Shown here: positions 9,109 to 31,164 of the stretch, piece by piece | Numbering within the stretch: the stretch's first letter is position 1 | Layout: each line of letters opens with the position of its first letter | Virus record (IMG/VR): IMGVR_UViG_3300030104_000258 | Coordinates: 1-31,164 of that record | DNA length: 31,164 bases | From: a virus | Direction: 5' to 3' (one strand) | Position numbers and translations under genes: made by a program | The notes under the pieces: model-generated | Seen by the model: only the letters and a program-made list of their open reading frames with translations | The model's database searches: none | Told to the model about the DNA's origin: nothing

Positions 9109-9122
9109 TAGGGTATACCCTA
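9109..9122. promoter_or_regulatory. Perfect 14-bp palindrome TAGGGTATACCCTA (operator copy E)
   Basis: Located between the tail tube stop (9106) and the tail assembly chaperone ATG (9144). It has the same GGGTATACC core as four sites in the early minus-strand region (25554, 26775, 27693 and 29569), and is the only copy in the late genes. It is too short for an ordinary terminator and has no T-run after it. A protein binding site is more likely. Confidence 0.55.
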
Positions 9123-21845: not shown

Positions 21846-22544
21846 TTGCCAAAAATTAAAATTATACCTACTGCATCAATACCACGTATACCTGATGTTG
21901 TAATACCTAATCCAACAACCTTACCTAATACAACCCATGTAACAAGGTCATTACCGCCTACTTTTGATATGCCTTGTGCAACTGTCAGAAGAGATGGAAC
22001 AAAAAATACACAGCTATTTACAGATGACCCTGCAGGTAATGTAGTAATAAATTGTCCTATACCCTTCTATAAACCCCTTCAATACAATGCAAAAGAATTA
22101 GTACCAATACAGGAAGCAAAACCACCCACTAACGTAGAACAGCCACCTATAACAGAAACAGAAACACCAAAAGTACCTGATATACCAAATGAAGAACAGC
22201 CACCTTGTCCTGACCCTAAAAAAAACAACCCACGCATAGGTGATTTAAATAGTAAAGGTACAGAAAAAGTAGTTGGGTTTACTTATATAAAAGAAACTAA
22301 AGAATGTGTTGTGAATTATATGCCTACTAATGCAGTAGAAAAATATTTACCATCAGCAAATACAGTTTCTACAACATTTGCTATAACCGTAGTTGCAACA
22401 ACGGCAGCTACCCTAACGCCTATCTTAAATAAAATTCTTAAACCTGTATTTAAAAAACTTATAGGTGCTGTAAAAAAAGCTTTAGGTAAAAAAGGTACAA
22501 AATTTACAGGTAAAAAACCTATTAAATCTAAACTTAATTCTTGA
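21846..22544 (+). CDS. Proline-rich protein with C-terminal membrane segment and basic tail
   Basis: A 232-aa protein starting at TTG 21846; an in-frame stop at 21834-21836 leaves no ATG or GTG option. The order is a Pro/Ile-rich N-terminus (IPTASIPRIPDVVIPNPTTL), a segment with CATVRRDG and VINCPIPFYKPLQYN, and a Pro/Glu-rich linker at about 95-125. Then come GFTYIKETKECVV, a hydrophobic helix (TTFAITVVATTAATLTPIL, about 178-197) and a strongly basic end. I recall similarly built proteins in marine cyanophages, uncharacterised. The start follows the preceding gene's stop by one base. Its 3' end overlaps the convergent gene's 3' end by 11 bp. Confidence 0.65.
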   Translation: MPKIKIIPTASIPRIPDVVIPNPTTLPNTTHVTRSLPPTFDMPCATVRRDGTKNTQLFTDDPAGNVVINCPIPFYKPLQYNAKELVPIQEAKPPTNVEQPPITETETPKVPDIPNEEQPPCPDPKKNNPRIGDLNSKGTEKVVGFTYIKETKECVVNYMPTNAVEKYLPSANTVSTTFAITVVATTAATLTPILNKILKPVFKKLIGAVKKALGKKGTKFTGKKPIKSKLNS

Positions 22545-23196
22545 TTTCATGTACGTGTTCTAAATTTGTAGGTTCGATAATTTCAATATCTGAACATATT
22601 TTTGCCATTGGTGTACCTGCCTTGAACCTAAAGCCCTGTTTAAAATTATCTGCACAGGTTTTTGCCCTACTCATTTCATAATTTAACCTTTTTGCTGCAA
22701 GTGATGCTTCATATAGTTCATTTTGTTTTTCCATTGCTTTACGGCATTGTCTTATAGGTTCTCTATCTAATGGAATACTAAAAGTAGCTGTAATTCCACC
22801 ATTAATAGATGTGTTTGATTGTCTCATTCCTGTACGCACCTTTTCAAAATATAAAATCTCACCTCTATGACCTGCATCTACATCACCATCACCAATAGCA
22901 TTATTACTGTCATCAAAATCACCTTCTATATCTCTTGTGCTGTAAACAGGTCTATCAAAATGCGGTTCATAAGGTGTAGCAAAACCATAGGTAGTAGAAA
23001 CAAAAGGAGATATATTTAATGTTGCACCCTGACAACTAATAGTGTTCATCTGGTACTGAAATTGTCTAGAAGGTACTACCTGGACAGCCTGATTAACAAC
23101 CGAGCCACTAGAATTCGAAGTTGTATTGATACTATTAGCTTTTAGAGGGGTATTAATTATACTTAAGCCTATTAATAAATACCTAAAAAATCTCAT
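22534..23196 (-). CDS. Secreted protein with signal peptide and helical C-terminus (envelope cassette gene 4)
   Basis: A 220-aa protein. The signal peptide is MRFFRYLLIGLSIINTPLKA (cleavage about residue 20). The mature part has a Ser/Val/Gln-rich start, an acidic Asp/Asn-rich loop (DIEGDFDDSNNAIGDGDVDA) and a charged helix (CRKAMEKQNELYEASLAAKR) with two further cysteines in CADNFKQGF and ICSDIEII. Cysteine pairs suggest disulfides in the periplasm. It is the last of four adjacent minus-strand genes. I do not recognise a characterised family; such genes occur in marine cyanophages, as far as I recall. Confidence 0.7.
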   Translation of the reverse strand: MRFFRYLLIGLSIINTPLKANSINTTSNSSGSVVNQAVQVVPSRQFQYQMNTISCQGATLNISPFVSTTYGFATPYEPHFDRPVYSTRDIEGDFDDSNNAIGDGDVDAGHRGEILYFEKVRTGMRQSNTSINGGITATFSIPLDREPIRQCRKAMEKQNELYEASLAAKRLNYEMSRAKTCADNFKQGFRFKAGTPMAKICSDIEIIEPTNLEHVHEIKN

Positions 23197-23625
23197 TTAT
23201 TGACTAAAAGTACTGGTGCTATCAGAAATACTTTCTATAGTTGTTTGCCTGGTAACATGAGTGTAATTAGTAATTCCTGGTGTTTCTAATGTCTCATAAT
23301 ACATAAAACTTTCCGCTTCATTTATAACGCTGAAATTAGGCTTATTATCTAAATTTGGTGCAACAAATGTTGTACCCACACCTTCTACTGTTGTATTAAC
23401 TTTAGTCCAACCTGCAGGGGCTACATTACCTGTGGAACTTTGTACATTTTCACCACCTACTGTTAGCTGGTAGCCATTCCTTATATCAAAACTCTTTATG
23501 TCCTCAACTATTGTACTTTTTGTTTCTACGTGTTGCTGTAGAACCCCCTGTTGAAAATTTGGAATAACACTACCTGCATAAGTTGGTGCAGTACAAAAAA
23601 CATATAGCCAAAAAAGCCTATACAT
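23197..23625 (-). CDS. Secreted beta-rich protein with signal peptide (envelope cassette gene 3)
   Basis: A 142-aa protein. I chose ATG 23625, giving the signal peptide MYRLFWLYVFCTAPTYA; an upstream in-frame TTG at 23640 would spoil its length. The mature part is predicted beta-rich, with GVLQQHVETKSTIVEDIKSF, YQLTVGGENVQSSTG and TTVEGVGTTFVAP. The end is Thr/Ser-rich (TTIESISDSTSTFSQ). Its stop directly abuts the start of gene 4. The 'LTVGG' strand also appears in gene 2 of this cassette, so the two may share ancestry or assemble together. Unknown function. Confidence 0.68.
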   Translation of the reverse strand: MYRLFWLYVFCTAPTYAGSVIPNFQQGVLQQHVETKSTIVEDIKSFDIRNGYQLTVGGENVQSSTGNVAPAGWTKVNTTVEGVGTTFVAPNLDNKPNFSVINEAESFMYYETLETPGITNYTHVTRQTTIESISDSTSTFSQ

Positions 23626-23632
23626 ATTTTTA

Positions 23633-24130
23633 TTATTCAACTATTAATGTTGTTATTACCTGTCCTACCGCTTCTGTATTAGCCCCCCCTGCGGTTAATG
23701 AAATTGCACCTGCTGATGTAATAGTACCTGCTAAATTCCCTGCAGTACCACCTGCAACACTTGTTAAATCAGAAAAGTTTGCGGTATCACCTGTGGTAAC
23801 TGCTGACCCTGCTATAGCATCTGCTTGGGTAAATGACTGACTAAAACTGAAGCTATTAGCTGGAACGTCTTGTGTGACTGTTAAATCTGGGGCTGTACCA
23901 ATTCCTGATGAGATGGTTAATGAACCTACACCATTAGCAACTGCATTACCACCTGCAGTATAAGTTGTATCCACACCTGTACCGCTTACGCTATAACTGC
24001 TACCAATGCGATCTGAGGAAGTTGTAGCCCCTCCTACGGTCAGTTTTATTGATTGATTTATACTATGCGATAAATTAGCATAACAGGCAGGTGTAATTGC
24101 AAGAAGCAATAATGGTAGAAGCTTTTTCAT
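23633..24130 (-). CDS. Secreted Gly/Thr-rich beta protein (envelope cassette gene 2)
   Basis: A 165-aa protein. The signal peptide is MKKLLPLLLLAITPACYA, with a Cys near the end of the hydrophobic stretch. The mature chain has very low charge and is Gly/Ser/Thr/Ala-rich: SIKLTVGGATTSSDRIGSSY, VGSLTISSGIGTAP, GGTAGNLAGTITSAGAISLT and AGGANTEAVGQVI. It looks like a repetitive beta-strand protein such as an autotransporter-like or beta-roll layer. I associate very similar sequences with marine cyanophages, where they are unannotated. The start overlaps the upstream stop by 4 nt (ATGA). Confidence 0.7.
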   Translation of the reverse strand: MKKLLPLLLLAITPACYANLSHSINQSIKLTVGGATTSSDRIGSSYSVSGTGVDTTYTAGGNAVANGVGSLTISSGIGTAPDLTVTQDVPANSFSFSQSFTQADAIAGSAVTTGDTANFSDLTSVAGGTAGNLAGTITSAGAISLTAGGANTEAVGQVITTLIVE

Positions 24131-24567
24131 TTGTTTAGTTTAGGGTCAATTTTAATTACTTCTGGTTTAGTTGTAATTAGTTCTATTGGCTGTTTAATAA
24201 TAATTGTCTGTACACCACCATTAGAGTTACTAATAGTACTATTTTCTCCTTCTTTCTTTTTCTTCTTTGCACCTTGTGCAGCATTAACACTAATACCTAG
24301 ACCACCTAATATATTTCCAAGTAAACCAGCAGCAAATGTACTATCTACTCTAGGCTGGTCAGGTATATCTATTCCAAATAGTTTATTAGGCAACTTTATA
24401 TACCCTAGAGATAAAACTAATAGACACCAGGCAAGAATAAAGCCTTGTGCAACCGTAGAAATTAAGAAAGTAATTTTTTCTTGATAATCAGGTTTTTCAT
24501 CATCAAGTTCTTTTATTTTCTTTGAACTTTCTGCTTGCATAACTCTTTTTTCTGTCATAATAGCCAT
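24127..24567 (-). CDS. Membrane protein, first gene of the minus-strand envelope cassette
   Basis: A 146-aa protein. The N-terminus is charged and cytoplasmic (residues 1-30). One transmembrane helix follows (FLISTVAQGFILAWCLLVLS, about 33-54), then a hydrophobic glycine-rich stretch (FAAGLLGNILGGLGISV, about 79-95), a lysine cluster (KKKKKEGE) and a polar C-terminus. The start is ATG 24567 or an ATG three codons later at 24558. It opens a cassette whose other three products carry signal peptides, so it may anchor them or help their export. Divergent from the + gene at 24587 across only 19 bp. Confidence 0.65.
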   Translation of the reverse strand: MAIMTEKRVMQAESSKKIKELDDEKPDYQEKITFLISTVAQGFILAWCLLVLSLGYIKLPNKLFGIDIPDQPRVDSTFAAGLLGNILGGLGISVNAAQGAKKKKKEGENSTISNSNGGVQTIIIKQPIELITTKPEVIKIDPKLNK

Positions 24568-24572
24568 AGAAC

Positions 24573-24582
24573 CCTATATAGG
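24573..24582. promoter_or_regulatory. Palindrome CCTATATAGG between divergent genes
   Basis: A perfect 10-bp palindrome in the 19-bp gap between divergent starts at 24567 (-) and 24587 (+). Its centre TATATA can serve as a -10 on either strand, but no good -35 is seen. It differs from the GGGTATACC operator. Confidence 0.3.
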
Positions 24583-24586
24583 CAAA

Positions 24587-24817
24587 GTGGTAGAACTATT
24601 AGCAGCTACAAGTGGTGCTTTATTATCTGCAATATTTATATCAGCAGGTTCACTTAGCTATAGAGGTAAAAAGAATAGAGAAGATGTAGTGACCTTAATA
24701 ACAAAGGTAGAATTAATGACAGATAAAATGGACTCTATGCATAATGATATGCGTGATATATATGCAAGATTAAATGGTGTAGAGATAGGTGTGGCATCAC
24801 TAAAACCTAAAAGGTAG
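24587..24817 (+). CDS. Small membrane protein with coiled-coil tail (holin-like candidate)
   Basis: A 76-aa protein starting at GTG 24587. The N-terminal hydrophobic helix ATSGALLSAIFISAGSLSY (about 7-25) is followed by basic residues. A heptad-patterned helix (TKVELMTDKMDSMHNDMRDI, YARLNGVEIGVASL) follows, and it ends in KPKR. This size and plan fit hemolysin XhlA-like or DUF-type phage membrane proteins that sit near lysis genes. No endolysin is recognisable beside it, so holin is only a suggestion. The start codon choice is forced by the short gap and the absence of an ATG ahead of the hydrophobic helix. Confidence 0.55.
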   Translation: MVELLAATSGALLSAIFISAGSLSYRGKKNREDVVTLITKVELMTDKMDSMHNDMRDIYARLNGVEIGVASLKPKR

Positions 24818-24866
24818 TGTATAAAAGGTATTACTGCTAATATTCAGATATATTTGTATTTTTGGT

Positions 24867-25049
24867 ATGTTAAAACTATTAAAACCAATACTGTTAGGTC
24901 TATTTCCAGAAAGAGTAATTAAGCAATTAATTGTGGACTTATTACGTGTGGTGGTAAAACAAACCTCAAATGATGTTGATAATAAGGCTGTAGACTTTTT
25001 AGAACAGCAATTATTCCCAGGTAGAAAGATTAGCAGTTTACCTAGATAA
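24867..25049 (+). CDS. Small conserved-looking hypothetical protein, 60 aa
   Basis: A 60-aa protein: an amphipathic N-terminus (MLKLLKPILLGLFPERVIKQ), a helix LIVDLLRVVVKQTSN, then DNKAVDFLEQQLFPGRK. No true transmembrane segment is seen; a helical bundle or membrane-surface peptide is likely. It is the last + gene before a terminator 70 nt downstream. I do not recognise a named family. Confidence 0.5.
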   Translation: MLKLLKPILLGLFPERVIKQLIVDLLRVVVKQTSNDVDNKAVDFLEQQLFPGRKISSLPR

Positions 25050-25117
25050 CACTTGCATGAGGTGTAAATATAATTTACTTTTGGTATGCCTATGATATGC
25101 AAAGCAGTAGGCAACTT

Positions 25118-25151
25118 AAACCCTTTAGATGGATTCCCCTAGAGGGTTTTT
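25118..25151 (+). terminator. Rho-independent terminator, + strand
   Basis: An 11-bp stem AAACCCTTTAG (25118-25128) / CTAGAGGGTTT (25139-25149), with one G-T wobble, a 10-nt loop and TTTTT at 25147-25151. It ends the + strand transcripts from the envelope block. Confidence 0.8.
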
Positions 25152-25159
25152 GTATAGGC

Positions 25160-25184
25160 AAAAAAAAAGACCCAGTTAAGGGTC
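25160..25184 (-). terminator. Rho-independent terminator, minus strand
   Basis: GACCC (25169-25173), loop AGTTAA, GGGTC (25180-25184), with an A-run at 25160-25168 that is a U-run on the minus-strand RNA. It lies 9 bp downstream of the minus-strand gene ending at 25194 and almost touches the + strand terminator. Confidence 0.75.
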
Positions 25185-25193
25185 ATGTGTTTA

Positions 25194-25508
25194 TTAGCTT
25201 TGCCAATAGTTTGAAAAAGTCCTATCTAGGTGGTAAGGAATGTTTACAGGCTGTACAATTTTGTTACCTGTTCTTGCACAAATACCTTCTTGCGTTTTCT
25301 CTATATTTTTGTGAAAAAAATCTTTTTCAGCTATAGCATAGTCATCTTTTATAAAGTTGTTTACATAAGGTATCCTTGATAAACCTTTATCACATCTTGT
25401 AAGAAAAGATTTTGCAGAACTCTCAGTATTCCATGTAGTTCTTGAAATACCTCTACTTGCTTTGTATGCAAGTTTTGTAGTTTGTTTGTTGTAAATAACA
25501 AAAGTCAT
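25194..25508 (-). CDS. Small early-type phage protein of unknown function
   Basis: A 104-aa protein. I chose ATG 25508 (MTFVIYNKQTTKLAYKA) because AGAGGT lies 10 nt upstream within the leader shared with two other units. An upstream in-frame ATG at 25550 would lie within a few bases of the predicted transcription start. The pattern FVIYNKQTTKLA ... TESSAKSFLTRC ... DDYAIAEKDFFHKNIEKT resembles a small protein common in marine phages (strand, helix, then 'YAIA...ff...IEK'). Its role is unknown. It is a monocistronic unit between promoter A and the terminator at 25160. Confidence 0.65.
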   Translation of the reverse strand: MTFVIYNKQTTKLAYKASRGISRTTWNTESSAKSFLTRCDKGLSRIPYVNNFIKDDYAIAEKDFFHKNIEKTQEGICARTGNKIVQPVNIPYHLDRTFSNYWQS

Positions 25509-25541
25509 AATTGGAAACCTCTCGGTGTTGTTTATAAATCT

Positions 25542-25570
25542 AGTATACATACAGGGTATACCCCTATAAA
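25542..25570 (-). promoter_or_regulatory. Promoter A with palindromic operator in the spacer
   Basis: On the minus strand: -35 TTTATA (25565-25570), a 17-bp spacer containing GGGGTATACCC (palindrome core GGGTATACCC at 25554-25563), and -10 TATACT (25542-25547). The leader then carries ACCGAGAGGTTTCC and the ATG at 25508. Same layout as promoters B and C. Confidence 0.7.
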
Positions 25571-25595
25571 GGTTATGTTACGAAATAGTAATAAT

Positions 25596-25708
25596 TAGTC
25601 AGGAGATCGATCAAGTCCAACGCTTGCCCTGTCTTTCCTATGGCGGTAGGTATTCTATAACTTTCAAGTTAGAAGATGTGCAGTACTAACTATCAGGCTT
25701 CCCGACTA
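25596..25708 (-). ncRNA. Candidate structured RNA element of unknown type
   Basis: A non-coding stretch between the end of the mini-gene operon (25717) and promoter A. Read on the minus strand it is closed by GTCGGGA (25706-25700) pairing with TCCTGAC (25604-25598); pairs extend outwards by 2. The stem's G-U pair becomes A-C on the + strand, so the minus strand is favoured. Inside are GCCTG/CAGGGC (25698-25694 / 25631-25626), a 22-nt hairpin (25653-25674), CCTA/TAGG (25637-25650) and a small AAG/CTT arm (25612-25626). It does not fit a canonical tRNA cloverleaf and lacks a terminator U-run. Confidence 0.4.
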
Positions 25709-25716
25709 TTTGGTTA

Positions 25717-25884
25717 TTACTTTGTTACCTCCTTTTCCTTAACTGCAAAATCATTGTGCATTGCTACTTTTATCATATATTGTTCAAGTCTTTTGATTAA
25801 TTCATTTCTGGTTTCAAGATTTATCCAAGAACCCTCTTTTAATGCTGAGTAAATTTCAACTAATTGATGGTGTCTAAAATTCAT
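25717..25884 (-). CDS. Mini-gene, 55 aa, last of the coupled chain
   Basis: ATG at 25884 overlaps the previous gene's stop (ATGA) and is preceded by GGAGGTAAACAA. The product starts MNFRHHQLVEIYSALKEGSW and has a charged helix (TRNELIKRLEQYMIKVA). It ends KEKEVTK-stop, encoded by AAGGAGGTAACAAAGTAA, a ribosome binding site-like sequence with no start codon after it. No family recognised; it is probably a small soluble helical protein. Confidence 0.7.
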   Translation of the reverse strand: MNFRHHQLVEIYSALKEGSWINLETRNELIKRLEQYMIKVAMHNDFAVKEKEVTK

Positions 25885-26120
25885 TTGTTTACCTCCAAAT
25901 TTGTTAAAGCTGTTTCAATAATATTTAATTTATTTTTTAAAAAGATTAATTTTTCTGTATTTCTATCAAATGCTTTTTTTCTTGTTATTTGTTGCATTTT
26001 TGAACCTGTATGCCAATCTTTATATGTGTTTATGAAATTTTTTGTAGTATTTATTTGTGTTATTAAATTAAGTCTTTTATCGTTTAGCAAATCTTTGTAT
26101 AAAGGTAAATTTACTTTCAT
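25881..26120 (-). CDS. Mini-gene, 79-aa helical protein
   Basis: ATG at 26120 is preceded by AAGGAGGTAAACAA, a strong Shine-Dalgarno sequence. The protein is basic and helical throughout (YKDLLNDKRLNLITQINTTK, RNTEKLIFLKNKLNIIETAL). It ends LEVNK-stop, and those last codons (GGAGGTAAACAAATGA) are the ribosome binding site and start of the next gene. Low-complexity coiled-coil character; no known family. Confidence 0.7.
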   Translation of the reverse strand: MKVNLPLYKDLLNDKRLNLITQINTTKNFINTYKDWHTGSKMQQITRKKAFDRNTEKLIFLKNKLNIIETALTNLEVNK

Positions 26121-26251
26121 TTGTTTACCTCCTTATATCTTTTATCACCTCTTTCTTTTATTAGTAAATTTTTTTCTTCTTTCGATATACCCTCGTCTTT
26201 GAGCATTTCTTGAAAAATATCAAAAGGTACTTTTTTAATATCTATAATCAT
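26117..26251 (-). CDS. Mini-gene, 44 aa
   Basis: ATG at 26251, stop TGA at 26117-26119 overlapping the next ATG. It has a strong AAGGAGGTAAACAA upstream. The product starts MIIDIKKVPFDIFQEMLKDE, continues with a charged helix GISKEEKNLLIKERGDK and ends KEVNK-stop. The 'F..mL.DEGiskeEk.lLikeR' pattern suggests a helix-turn-helix-sized fragment or a small helical regulator, but no family is assigned. Confidence 0.7.
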   Translation of the reverse strand: MIIDIKKVPFDIFQEMLKDEGISKEEKNLLIKERGDKRYKEVNK

Positions 26252-26388
26252 TTGTTTACCTCCTTACAAGCTAGTTCATAATTACCTACCTGACTCTCAC
26301 ACGCTGTAACTGTCATGTCATGTAGGGTGGAATTAAGGGCTGTATAAAACAACCCTGACGCTGCTAACATCATTAGAAAGTTAGACAT
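26248..26388 (-). CDS. Mini-gene, 46 aa, with hydrophobic N-terminus
   Basis: ATG at 26388 overlaps the preceding TAA (TAATG), with AAGGAGGTAGCATA upstream. The product begins MSNFLMMLAASGLFYTALNS, either a short transmembrane helix or a signal peptide. A polar tail follows with two Cys (TACESQVGNYELAC), ending KEVNK-stop. It may be an exported or membrane peptide. No family recognised. Confidence 0.65.
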   Translation of the reverse strand: MSNFLMMLAASGLFYTALNSTLHDMTVTACESQVGNYELACKEVNK

Positions 26389-26729
26389 TATGCTACCTCC
26401 TTATTGCTTTTCATTAATTGTGTAGCTACTTCACTATTTGGCATTTCGTACGATTTAAAACCTGCTTTAGCACGTTCTGGATATACTAGCCATGGGTCGT
26501 TAGTAAGGGTTGCAATTTCAATTAACGTATTACTATCTGCATTTCTGTATTTTGAAACTGTTTTACGCATTAAATCTTCTCTACCGCATAAGAATTCATC
26601 ATGGTAATGTGGTTTTAGATTTTTATCACGAAATATAACGTGAACTGCATGTGTGTAGTTTCTTGCAGTTACTGGTTCTCTTGTCTCACCATCAGGGTAT
26701 GTAAGTGTGAGTTTTCTTGTTTTAGCCAT
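26388..26729 (-). CDS. Small early-type protein, first gene of operon B
   Basis: A 113-aa protein. I chose ATG 26729 (MAKTRKLTLTYPDGETREPV) because the conserved leader CCGAGAGGTTTTCC lies just upstream; the in-frame ATG at 26759 would leave almost no leader. The beta-type N-terminus (KLTLTYPDGETREPVTARN) is followed by HAVHVIFRDKNLKPHYHDEF and a mixed C-terminus with DPWLVYPERAKAGF. It ends SNKEVA-stop, whose codons carry the ribosome binding site of the next mini-gene. Soluble; no characterised family. Confidence 0.65.
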   Translation of the reverse strand: MAKTRKLTLTYPDGETREPVTARNYTHAVHVIFRDKNLKPHYHDEFLCGREDLMRKTVSKYRNADSNTLIEIATLTNDPWLVYPERAKAGFKSYEMPNSEVATQLMKSNKEVA

Positions 26730-26763
26730 CTTGGAAAACCTCTCGGTTGTTTGGTACATTCTT

Positions 26764-26792
26764 AATATACATCAGGGGTATACCCCTATCAA
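26764..26792 (-). promoter_or_regulatory. Promoter B with palindromic operator in the spacer
   Basis: Minus strand: -35 TTGATA (26787-26792), 17-bp spacer, -10 TATATT (26764-26769). The spacer holds GGGGTATACCCC (26775-26786), part of the perfect 14-mer AGGGGTATACCCCT (26774-26787). It drives the five-gene chain from 26729 to 25717 and lies just downstream of the terminator of the next unit. Confidence 0.75.
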
Positions 26793-26810
26793 GGTATTGT
26801 TAACAAACGG

Positions 26811-26842
26811 TAACAAAAGAAAAACCCTCTATAAAAGAGGGC
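26811..26842 (-). terminator. Rho-independent terminator of the DUF2786 gene
   Basis: Minus-strand stem CCCTCT (26841-26836) / AGAGGG (26830-26825) with a 5-nt loop, followed by a U-rich tail (A-rich + strand at 26811-26824). It is placed 20 bp after the stop at 26862. Confidence 0.75.
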
Positions 26843-26861
26843 TGTAATTATTTAAATAAAT

Positions 26862-27647
26862 TTAGTAACCTGATAACTGTTTTTGTCCACCACCTGCTAC
26901 CTGTCTATTAAGTCCTACAGAACTACCTGCTGCTAATCCACTATTTCTACCATCACCACCTGCACCTGTAAGTCTTGTTTTACTAGGTAAATTGCCATAC
27001 TTTTCATCTTTATATTTTTGTATAATACCCTTTTCTGTTTTATTAGACTCAACAACAGCTAATGCAGATTGATTTACAGTTTTATCTGCTATTTGTAATT
27101 GCCTACCATTCTGTTGTTCTTCTCTTTTCATCTTATATAATCTATTGCTTATATCTTCTGCAAAACCTTTTCTAAAATCGTTTCTATAAGCTGCACCTTT
27201 CATAGCAACTGCAAATGGGTCATCTTTACAATGTGTAGCCCATTGATCTGCCAAAGCTTGTAAAATGTAATCTGTATAAATTTCTATTTCTATTTTTCTT
27301 GCCTTAGAACACATAACATCTATTTGTCTTGTGCCACGTTCAAACCTGTTACCATCTTCATCACGTACACAAAAAACTATCGAACCATTATAAAAATGTG
27401 CAACAGCAGAAATAATATATTGTGTAGCAGGGTCTATACGTTTGTATGGGTCACCATACCTAAATGATGTTGCCTCTATATTTTCTTCAACAGTTTGCAT
27501 ATCTAACTGCTGTTCTAGCTGTTCTCTTGTAATACCTTTAGCTGCTAACTGTTGTTCTAATTTTTCTTCTGCTAATTTAGCTTCATGTGGGTTAGTACTA
27601 GCTGTAAGTCCTAAGATTTTTGAAAGAACATTTAATGATCTGGACAT
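26862..27647 (-). CDS. DUF2786-like protein, 261 aa
   Basis: The N-terminus LSKILGLTASTNPHEAKLAE followed by KLEQQLAAKGITREQLE (residues 8-45) is the DUF2786 signature (K+L.La.stn.hEA..A..k...l..+gi). Residues 75-170 contain YIISAVAHFYNGSIVFCVRD and IEIEIYTDYILQALADQW, like the partner domain that usually follows DUF2786 (DUF7168-type), then a helix-rich part. The C-terminus (about 215-261) is Gly/Ser-rich and disordered (GGDGRNSGLAAGSSVGLN). Such proteins are common in phages, possibly nucleic-acid-associated, but unproven. Single gene between promoter C and its own terminator, with the shared CCGAGAGGT leader. Confidence 0.8.
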   Translation of the reverse strand: MSRSLNVLSKILGLTASTNPHEAKLAEEKLEQQLAAKGITREQLEQQLDMQTVEENIEATSFRYGDPYKRIDPATQYIISAVAHFYNGSIVFCVRDEDGNRFERGTRQIDVMCSKARKIEIEIYTDYILQALADQWATHCKDDPFAVAMKGAAYRNDFRKGFAEDISNRLYKMKREEQQNGRQLQIADKTVNQSALAVVESNKTEKGIIQKYKDEKYGNLPSKTRLTGAGGDGRNSGLAAGSSVGLNRQVAGGGQKQLSGY

Positions 27648-27679
27648 TGGTTTACCTCTCGGTTGTGTTTACAATATTT

Positions 27680-27708
27680 AGTGTACATCTAAGGTATACC
27701 CCTGTCAA
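27680..27708 (-). promoter_or_regulatory. Promoter C with operator in the spacer
   Basis: Minus strand: consensus -35 TTGACA (27703-27708), 17-bp spacer, -10 TACACT (27680-27685). The spacer contains GGGGTATACCTT (27691-27702), an imperfect half of the palindrome. The stop codon of the upstream Mom-like gene (27705-27707) lies inside the -35 hexamer, so that gene's end and this promoter are fixed together. Confidence 0.75.
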
Positions 27709-28451
27709 CTTCTTTTAGGATATTCTTTTATATATTCTTGTATTTTAGATTTATAATATTTCTTTTCTGTTTTATTTCCTAAAAAATAAAAATATCTACG
27801 CTTACTTTTTTGCGGTATAAATTTTGCATCGGGAAACATTTTAAGTATTTCTTCTTTTTTTTGCGTACCTAGTTTTTGTCTTATTGATCTTGCACCATAC
27901 AATTTACCTTTTATTTCTACACCAAACCTGTCATTATCTCTATCATTAACTTTAGGGTTGTTTTCTCTCATAGACCCTATATATGTAAAATTACAGGCTT
28001 GGTAGATAGTGCCTATTTCACCTGCTAATTCATCAACAGTTGCAGTTACTACTTTATATTTATCAGGTAACATTTTCATACTTTGTGTTATTAACTTACT
28101 AGCACTATGTGGGTGTGACCAATGAACACAAGCACCTCTACTAAGTAAAATAATTTTTCCTGTATAATCAAATTTATCCCAATGTCCTAAGTTTTCACTA
28201 TATTCTGTGCTATAAACAACCGCACCACCTAAATTACCTTCAAAATATATTCCATAACAATACTGAACCATAGCGGGCATACATTGTAGCCATTCATATC
28301 TTTTTATTAAATTAGTAGCTGTTCTTACGTCTATTTCTTGTACAACTGCTTTTTTTATATCTGTATCTACATTTTCCCACCACCTACCAAAAAGGTTATG
28401 TGCATCTTCTTTTTCCATCTGATCTTTTATTAACTTCTGATGTGCAATCAT
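27705..28451 (-). CDS. Mom-like GNAT-fold protein (putative DNA base modification)
   Basis: A 248-aa protein. Residues 44-160 follow the plan of phage Mom-type acyltransferases: RTATNLIKRYEWL, then MVQYCYGIYFEGNLGGAVVY, then ILLSRGACVHWSHPHSASKL (102-121). After that come KYKVVTATVDE and AGEIGTIYQACNFTYIGSM (143-161). The 'SR......hp.saS.li......' plus 'D.....GtIYQA.nF.YiG' pair is the Mom hallmark. In phage Mu, Mom converts adenine to N6-methylcarbamoyl adenine and so blocks restriction. The C-terminal 85 residues, rich in Lys, include KLYGARSIRQKLG as in relatives. It overlaps the resolvase-like gene by 4 nt. A generic GNAT acetyltransferase is the alternative. Confidence 0.65.
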   Translation of the reverse strand: MIAHQKLIKDQMEKEDAHNLFGRWWENVDTDIKKAVVQEIDVRTATNLIKRYEWLQCMPAMVQYCYGIYFEGNLGGAVVYSTEYSENLGHWDKFDYTGKIILLSRGACVHWSHPHSASKLITQSMKMLPDKYKVVTATVDELAGEIGTIYQACNFTYIGSMRENNPKVNDRDNDRFGVEIKGKLYGARSIRQKLGTQKKEEILKMFPDAKFIPQKSKRRYFYFLGNKTEKKYYKSKIQEYIKEYPKRS

Positions 28452-28789
28452 TTTATTAATCTTGCATACTGTTCAATGGTCATAACAACACGCCAATTAT
28501 CACCTTCTGCACAACCTGGTCTTTTATTAAATCTAACCATAGTAATAGCATGATCTGCTTTTGCATTTATTCTTTGCTGTTCTGCTTCTCTTGGTTTTCT
28601 TAATACTGCTTCTGCTTTATTTTTCATATCTGTTACCTGTACAACAGTATTAGGTATGCCAGTTAAATCACCTTTATCTTTTTCCATACCTGCCCCAAAA
28701 CGTCTTTCAACTTCATAACCTGTTGCTTTTGACAGATAAATACAGGCTTCTCTCTCTGCCCTATCACCTTTGTTTTTTTGTGTGTTCAT
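28448..28789 (-). CDS. Small PD-(D/E)XK nuclease, resolvase-like
   Basis: A 113-aa protein. NKGDRAEREACIYLSKATGY (6-25) and RRFGAGMEKDKGDLTGIPNT (29-48) followed by VVQVTDMK (49-56) match phage Hjc/RecU-like or VRR-related nucleases: the Glu in GDRAERE, Asp41 in KGDLTG, then a Q-x-x strand. The usual Lys of the E/QxK motif is displaced (QVTDMK), so activity is uncertain. It could resolve recombination or replication intermediates before packaging. It overlaps the genes on both sides by 4 nt, so it is cotranslated with the Mom-like gene. Confidence 0.65.
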   Translation of the reverse strand: MNTQKNKGDRAEREACIYLSKATGYEVERRFGAGMEKDKGDLTGIPNTVVQVTDMKNKAEAVLRKPREAEQQRINAKADHAITMVRFNKRPGCAEGDNWRVVMTIEQYARLIK

Positions 28790-29052
28790 TTTTCTAATTC
28801 TTTAATTTTCTTTTTTAGTGCTTCATACTCTACTAAATATTCCTTAGTAGCAAACTCTGATTTATGGTTAAACATATACCGATCACTTAATGCACCTAAT
28901 TGATTATGTAAATCATCTATCATTTTTTGTTTCTTATCTTTAAATTCTTTTGTTAATTCATCTTCTTTTGGGTTCTTAGTCCAATCAGCAACTAAATTAA
29001 GTAACTCTTTCACCCTTTTAAATGCCTGTTCTACTCTTTCTGTTGTTTTCAT
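28786..29052 (-). CDS. Small helical protein of unknown function
   Basis: An 88-aa protein. I chose ATG 29052 (MKTTERVEQAFKRVKELLNL) because it overlaps the upstream stop as ATGA, like its neighbours; an in-frame ATG lies four codons further upstream at 29064. It is almost entirely charged helix (EFKDKKQKMIDDLHNQLGAL, EYEALKKKIKELEK), so a coiled coil is likely. It is the third gene of operon D. No family recognised. Confidence 0.6.
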   Translation of the reverse strand: MKTTERVEQAFKRVKELLNLVADWTKNPKEDELTKEFKDKKQKMIDDLHNQLGALSDRYMFNHKSEFATKEYLVEYEALKKKIKELEK

Positions 29053-29363
29053 CTTATTGCCCATGTAAAACCAGTATCTATTTTAGTTGCAATTCCTTCT
29101 TCTCTTTCCTGTTGTTCCCTATCTTCTATAGCTGTTGCAATATCTTTTTTATAATCTACTAACTCTTTACTATATTCCCATTTTTCTGGTTTACGTTTTC
29201 GTACAGCCTTTACATTATCAATACTAAAAGTACTCATAATAATACTTTCTTGGAAATACTTTTCTAATATCATTTTCTTTTCAGTAATTTGTGTTTCTAA
29301 TTCTTTTTTTTGCAGTTGTGCAACTCTAATCTGCCTTAATAACTGTTCTGGTTGTACGTTCAT
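29049..29363 (-). CDS. Coiled-coil protein of unknown function
   Basis: A 104-aa protein. It has a long N-terminal helix (QLLRQIRVAQLQKKELETQI, TEKKMILEKYFQE), a short beta part (STFSIDNVKAVRKRKPEKWE), a second helix with many Glu/Gln and the end TKIDTGFTWAIR. The plan 'helix, KW.YS, helix, f.TG..W.iR' recurs in small phage early proteins. It overlaps the next start by 4 nt. Confidence 0.6.
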   Translation of the reverse strand: MNVQPEQLLRQIRVAQLQKKELETQITEKKMILEKYFQESIIMSTFSIDNVKAVRKRKPEKWEYSKELVDYKKDIATAIEDREQQEREEGIATKIDTGFTWAIR

Positions 29364-29365
29364 AA

Positions 29366-29527
29366 TTAATAAAATCTATATTCTGGATAAAGGTCAGGTT
29401 GGTAATCATCAGGTAAATTTACTAACCATTCTAAATACATTTTTGCAGCGTTCATAATTTGTATATCATCAAATTTAGCAAGCCATTCTTCTCGGTCTAG
29501 TTGTTCTAGTTCTTCTTCAAATGACAT
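29366..29527 (-). CDS. Small acidic protein, first gene of operon D, 53 aa
   Basis: ATG at 29527, TAA at 29366-29368, two bases before the next ATG. The product starts MSFEEELEQLDREEWLAKFD, continues DIQIMNAAKMYLEWLVNLPD and ends DDYQPDLYPEYRFY. Strongly acidic and helical at the N-terminus, with an aromatic C-terminus. Acidic phage mini-proteins are sometimes DNA mimics or inhibitors, but nothing here proves that. It lies directly downstream of operator copy D. Confidence 0.65.
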   Translation of the reverse strand: MSFEEELEQLDREEWLAKFDDIQIMNAAKMYLEWLVNLPDDYQPDLYPEYRFY

Positions 29528-29567
29528 AGCTTAGAAAAATAAACAATAATAAGTACACATTTAGTAT

Positions 29568-29579
29568 GGGGTATACCCT
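29568..29579 (-). promoter_or_regulatory. Operator copy D upstream of the nuclease/Mom-like operon
   Basis: GGGTATACCC at 29569-29578, 41 bp before the ATG at 29527 (minus strand). TTGTAA (29579-29584) sits in the same -35-like position as in promoters A-C, but no good -10 lies 17 bp away; TGTACT lies 21 bp away. The following leader lacks CCGAGAGGT. Regulation here may differ in detail. Confidence 0.55.
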
Positions 29580-29597
29580 TACAAGATGCAAGCCCTA

Positions 29598-30706: not shown

Positions 30707-30975
30707 ATTTCCTTCTCATATTCCACAGGATCAAAAGTTACTTTACCTGTAAGTGTATTTGTCCATTTTGGTATTTGTTCTAAACGTAGAGATGGTGTTG
30801 CACCACATTTAGTACGTAATAAACGTTTCCATTTTCCTGTTTTATTTTCCCTGTCATAACCCATAGCAATAAACCAACCTTCTGAAGGTGTATCTAAATC
30901 TGATACTTTCATAAGACCTTTATCTACCATTTTTTGTAGAGTTCTTTTTGCACTACCATTAAATATTCTTTGCAT
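30703..30975 (-). CDS. Small protein of unknown function, 90 aa
   Basis: It starts MQRIFNGSAKRTLQKMVDKG, then SDLDTPSEGWFIAMGYDREN, KWKRLLRTKCGA and a final FDPVEYEKEI. One Cys and many basic residues in the middle suggest nucleic acid contact, but no family is recognised. It is cotranslated with both neighbours: its start overlaps the upstream stop (TAATG) and its stop overlaps the next start (ATGA). Confidence 0.55.
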   Translation of the reverse strand: MQRIFNGSAKRTLQKMVDKGLMKVSDLDTPSEGWFIAMGYDRENKTGKWKRLLRTKCGATPSLRLEQIPKWTNTLTGKVTFDPVEYEKEI

Positions 30976-31163
30976 TAGATTAAGTTCCCCATATCATCAA
31001 ACTGTACAACCTTCTGGTTAGGGTGAGTTGTTGTTGGTTCTGGTTCTTTATTAAACCTATTCATACGCTGTTGTTGTTCTTCATAATGACTTAGTTTTAA
31101 ACCTTTCCAAGTACCTGCAAGAATACCTGCTTCTAACTGATCTTTAAGTATCTGTTCACTATA
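30975..31163 (-). CDS. C-terminal end of a gene cut by the window edge
   Basis: An open minus-strand frame enters at 31163 and stops at TAA 30975-30977, overlapping the next ATG. The visible 62 residues include SEQILKDQLEAGILAGTWKG, a Gln/Arg stretch (HYEEQQQRMNRFNKE) and a polar tail ending FDDMGNLI. An acidic hydrophobic tip like this occurs in single-stranded DNA-binding proteins, but too little is visible to say. Confidence 0.6.
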   Translation of the reverse strand, partial: YSEQILKDQLEAGILAGTWKGLKLSHYEEQQQRMNRFNKEPEPTTTHPNQKVVQFDDMGNLI

Positions 31164-31164
31164 T

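Follow-up and report, generated by a model that had tools for sequence, protein, structure and literature searches.

In a stretch of viral DNA of 31,164 nt (the window) and in its relatives, we found a phage regulon whose units are portable cassettes of promoter and operator. Promoter, operator and leader form a unit that stands before about 35 unrelated families of small genes. The palindrome within this unit is probably the operator of a phage-encoded repressor acting over the cassettes, for which the small protein c27 is the most likely candidate.

Palindromic sites in the window

The window encodes a terminase, a portal protein, a major head protein, tail genes, an exonuclease, a RusA-like protein and a Mom-like protein. 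Its terminase is nearest to those of the Synechococcus siphophages S-CBS3 and S-CBS1 (about 45%), and one further gene matches almost exclusively cyanophages; judged by this kinship, the phage probably infects a marine picocyanobacterium. Among isolate phages, there was no DNA match to the window and the cassette is absent, as is the motif from S-CBS1 and S-CBS3. An early module of ~7 kb (window about 22534-29591, from the p53 operon to the phrog_848 gene) lies in either orientation among relatives, between the phrog_570 and exonuclease genes. The Mom-like DNA modification protein (27705-28451; Pfam Mom, E 5.6e-23) is encoded by some relatives and not by others.

A string search of the window located the exact 9-mer GGGTATACC at 25554/25555, 26776/26777, 27693 and 29569/29570, and in addition at 9111/9112. 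The copy at 27693 is exact on one strand only, its opposite side reading AGGTATACC. When up to one mismatch was allowed, 14 matches were obtained versus 3.9 ± 2.6 in shuffled sequences (0 of 100 shuffles reached 14).

At three minus-strand sites, the palindrome begins right after the -35 hexamer and lies within a sigma-70 spacer of exactly 17 bp (class A). This arrangement had been claimed in the preliminary description, and it was borne out both by reading the sequence and by a generic promoter scan, which picked up all three promoters. The first (25542-25570; TTTATA-GGGGTATACCCTGTATG-TATACT) comprises the -35 TTTATA at 25570-25565, the operator GGGGTATACCC at 25564-25554 and the -10 TATACT at 25547-25542, upstream of gene 25194-25508. 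The second (26764-26792; TTGATA-GGGGTATACCCCTGATG-TATATT) is a member of the repeat family D2/D3 upstream of gene 26388-26729, and the third (27680-27708; TTGACA-GGGGTATACCTTAGATG-TACACT) stands upstream of the phrog_421 gene (26862-27647) and reaches into the Mom-like gene at its 3' end. Since promoter-like sites of the window, all taken together, were not in excess over shuffles in the same scan, the hexamers alone are no proof; conservation in relatives does count.

The fourth site had been thought to retain its -35 side only, which is not what we found: TTGCAT (29591-29586) and CATACT (29568-29563) are separated by 17 bp, and both hexamers are conserved in relatives. Here the operator GGGTATACCC (29578-29569) abuts the -10 hexamer (class B, 29563-29591, minus strand), upstream of the p53 operon (29366-29527 onward). 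A fifth copy was overlooked when four copies, all before minus-strand units, were described. This class D site, GGGTATACCC at 9111-9120 on the plus strand, falls in the gap from the end of the major tail protein (9106) to the tail chaperone gene (9144), so the sites are not confined to minus-strand units. The sequence GGGTATACCC, GGGTAAACCC or a near variant was present at class D in 17 of 17 genomes examined. A role of class D as a promoter was ruled out, as there is no convincing 17-bp hexamer pair.

Class A promoters are followed by a leader, ACCGAGAGGT, with the Shine-Dalgarno sequence GAGG (25517-25526, minus strand; copies at 26739-26746 (core) and 27654-27663). The idea that a leader hairpin, ACC-GAGA-GGT, acts as regulatory RNA was rejected: the stem is broken or the CC arm missing in several cassettes, and the folding energy is ordinary. 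One leader family (AGTG-GAGA-CACT) looks compensatory, and the leader may be read as a Shine-Dalgarno sequence with a possible weak hairpin.

On the same strand, terminator-like hairpins lie at 26823-26843, just upstream of the 26.8-kb cassette, and at 25169-25184, downstream of gene 25194-25508. Another cassette of the window is preceded by a conserved noncoding element (25597-25707, minus strand; about 110-120 nt, AGTCGGGAAGCCTGATAG...CTTGATCNATCTCCYGACT), which was detected in ~91 viral stretches with one match each. In its predicted structure 99% of cells are paired, a helix covaries (GUUAG/CUAAC to GUAAG/CUUAC, and others), and in many relatives the element ends in a terminator-like hairpin. 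A comparison with Rfam gave no match. The element is possibly an undescribed phage RNA.

Conservation and spread of the cassette

The cassette pattern matched 79 viral stretches, and relatives provided 109 distinct instances of class A and 47 of class B. A spacing of 17 bp was the best in all 109 class A cassettes when 16-18 bp were allowed, class A itself being defined at 17. To avoid the circularity of a motif-defined class, the p53 and phrog_421 promoters were collected by their genes. The operator was exact in 47 of 53 p53 promoters and within one mismatch in 52 of 53, and in their alignment it is conserved as strongly as the hexamers and more strongly than the remaining spacer. Among phrog_421 promoters, 16 orthologues carry the exact operator, and no close match is seen in the 15 that come from more distant relatives. 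The palindrome is thus conserved at equivalent places in relatives, which supports the earlier proposal of a phage regulon with an operator in the spacer. A literature search with the palindrome string returned, among the matches listed, only unrelated work, judged by title and abstract.

For 107 class A cassettes, the gene that comes first was grouped by family; there are 35 such families, mostly of small genes with unknown function. A GAGG-type ribosome site is present in 105 of these 107 cassettes, and most genes begin 43-46 bp past the operator core.

Such spread bears on a reading in which the palindrome merely hitch-hikes in a copied promoter without a binding protein, or is a target of modification or restriction. 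The cassettes have clearly been copied about, shared ancestry explains part of their identity, and a Mom-like modification gene is present. However, promoters of quite unlike sequence (classes B, C and E) conserve the palindrome at differing offsets, class D conserves it outside any promoter, and we regard this reading as extremely unlikely. A regulator of the picocyanobacterial host, which would couple phage early genes to the state of the host by reading the palindrome, is unlikely as well. Phages do exploit host regulators, and no regulator gene is recognisable within the window, but a search of 257 Gb of bacterial and archaeal sequence (84,980 species genomes) for the full cassette pattern found no match.

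What kind of regulator would suit the site is indicated by its geometry. Where in the spacer the core GGTATACC of the operator begins depends on the promoter class: at position 3 in class A, at 5 in class E (the promoter of c28-c27, described below) and at 9 in class B. The preliminary description had left open a repressor competing with RNA polymerase or a MerR-like activator; the former is favoured by our analysis and the latter disfavoured. Promoters of MerR-family activators share the operator within the spacer, but they have spacers of 19-20 bp and a fixed geometry, in contrast to the 17 bp and variable offset found here. The weak hexamers of class B, with 7 of 12, do not surpass shuffled flanks, and an activator could be needed there; class A hexamers are near consensus (9-11 of 12). 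Because the offsets differ inside spacers of optimal length, a steric repressor is favoured, and we consider it very unlikely that a MerR-like or other activator binds the site and remodels the spacer.

The candidate regulator c27

That no regulator gene is recognisable in the window had been stated before and proved correct; the likely one, c27, is encoded in relatives, shortly beyond the point that corresponds to base 31164. There, the gene order past the window end is c23, c26, c28, c27, SSB, c30 and then TerS. The 3' part of c23 (30975-31164, minus strand), placed by the synteny of relatives, is cut by the window end, and c28 is annealing-protein-like by appearance. We identified c27 in a screen of conserved small genes. 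It is a protein of 64 aa encoded beside SSB, known from relatives and not from the window's own record. In S-CBS3, a hypothetical 64-aa protein with a ribbon-helix-helix (RHH)-like pattern is encoded beside SSB as well, in the position of c27 (L275:23375-23569).

Comparison of c27 with Pfam gave no RHH family match. PHROG matches were weak (Arc-like repressor, 0.045; transcriptional repressor, 0.0031), as was a match to 2kel, which we take to be SvtR, an RHH repressor. A monomer model (pLDDT 72) contains the two helices that an RHH protein should have, but is also helical in place of the expected beta strand, and its non-significant fold matches include Arc (PDB 1par) and CopG. In appearance, c27 is a ribbon-helix-helix, Arc-like protein, every match lying below significance thresholds. 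A c27-like match in another genome (G024) was ruled out, being antisense to a phrog_421-like gene.

In nearly all genomes, the spacer of the c28-c27 operon promoter (class E, TTGCCA-17-TATACT) includes the operator-like sequence GGGTAAACC, which overlaps the end of c26. For the Lys codon that GGGTAAACC overlaps, 13 of 14 genes use AAG, versus 20% genome-wide. This makes GGGTAAACC a plausible candidate for an autoregulatory site, and c27 would likely act like Arc at its own promoter. Clades without the motif are also without c27; we dropped this co-occurrence as proof, since it is confounded by shared descent.

In one relative (L310), operators and c27 differ jointly, which is the strongest evidence for c27 as the regulator. 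All three class A operators of L310 read GGGGTTAACC, that is, they are of a TTAA type instead of the usual TATA type, and a control pattern with GGGGTTAACC matched two stretches only, both in the same phage group. The putative c27 strand of L310 is HMVGAKL (within NRHMVGAKL), versus (H/F/Y)LVS(S/A)KL elsewhere, the differences being L23M and S25G. In the other c27 sequences read, L23 is found in all and S25 in all but the G005 lineage. Positions 23 and 25 presumably align with the base-contacting strand residues of Arc, and the argument for a joint change rests on these two strand positions. A second genome (L320) has the operator form of L310, with c27 not found on its contig; a third (L323) has the c27 allele of L310, with no class A site seen. 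TTAA operators and altered c27 are thus seen together in L310 alone, and because this is a single lineage, the joint change is suggestive, not proof. The chances appear about even that an Arc-like repressor and cassette operators recruiting unrelated genes have jointly switched to another recognition sequence in one or more lineages of these uncultured marine cyanosiphoviruses.

An excess divergence of L310 c27 as a whole (Fisher p 1.6e-5, counting near-invariant columns) was not robust and was set aside: under strict leave-one-out, 3/23 compared to 4/27 in another genome. In the G005 lineage, L206 has c27 with S25Q and changed sites at class D (AAGTATACCC) and class E (AAGGTATACTT), but its class A operator is unchanged.

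The difference in L310 also bears on the rival readings. The operators of one phage genome differ in concert, which argues against a hitch-hiking palindrome, and they do so along with a phage protein, which argues against a host regulator. Another phage protein could be the regulator, be it an unknown small protein or c23, a divergently placed gene conserved across the group, whose product has an N-terminal pattern resembling RHH (its structure model is poor, pLDDT 53). But the N-terminus of c23 in L310 is the form found in TATA-type genomes, whereas the c27 strand differs, and there is no operator in front of c23. On these two grounds c23 was rejected, and a phage regulator other than c27 is, overall, unlikely.

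Proposed control and comparison with known systems

With c27 as the preferred regulator, the cassettes could work as follows. The palindrome GGGTATACC(C) would be the operator, and host RNA polymerase would use the surrounding promoters until the repressor covers the spacer and the promoters are off. The repressor would be produced from the c28-c27-SSB operon, whose promoter holds the imperfect operator GGGTAAACC, so that c27 may limit its own synthesis as well as turn down early accessory genes. Binding of the site by c27, repression by this binding and its timing are what we infer from sequence. A newly acquired gene would enter the regulon on arrival, because a portable unit of promoter, operator and leader stands ahead of it.

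These results provide a concrete pair of candidate regulator and operator for phages known from metagenomes only, which probably infect very abundant cyanobacteria of the ocean. They suggest that acquired genes come under control at once, arriving with a standard promoter-operator ahead of them. The TATA/TTAA pair may be a natural specificity switch, in which the sites of a small DNA-binding protein change along with the protein itself.

The Arc repressor of phage P22 is a ribbon-helix-helix protein with an operator in P-ant. The likeness to Arc lies in a small phage RHH-like protein that would govern the operon encoding it, in alternating strand residues expected to contact bases, and in a palindromic operator between -35 and -10, which we observed in classes A, B and E, the candidate regulator's own promoter included. 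Unlike in P22, many operators lie genome-wide in portable cassettes before unrelated genes; host and genome are unrelated, the operator sequence is different, and c27 is a candidate member of the Arc/MetJ superfamily.

The stoperators of mycobacteriophages L5 and Bxb1 are asymmetric 13-mers, mainly intergenic and in one orientation, with 24 (L5) to 34 (Bxb1) per genome (PMC3029335). As proposed here, one repressor serves several sites per genome, and site sequence and repressor recognition residues differ together between groups. In contrast to stoperators, the sites described here are palindromic, only a handful in number and mostly placed in promoter spacers; class D alone resembles a stoperator.

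A moron is an ORF flanked by a promoter and a terminator (PMC3029335). The genes behind the cassettes have the same character: they have promoters of their own, terminator-like hairpins are seen in the window, and distribution among relatives is patchy, as the 35 families vary between genomes. Mobile regulatory cassettes are also reported for T4-type phages (Arbiol et al. 2010, cited in PMC4177764). Morons and the reported T4-type cassettes resemble the present ones in that small accessory genes have their own promoters and a promoter unit recurs before different genes; the unit found here differs by including a shared operator, by which the accessory genes would form one regulon.
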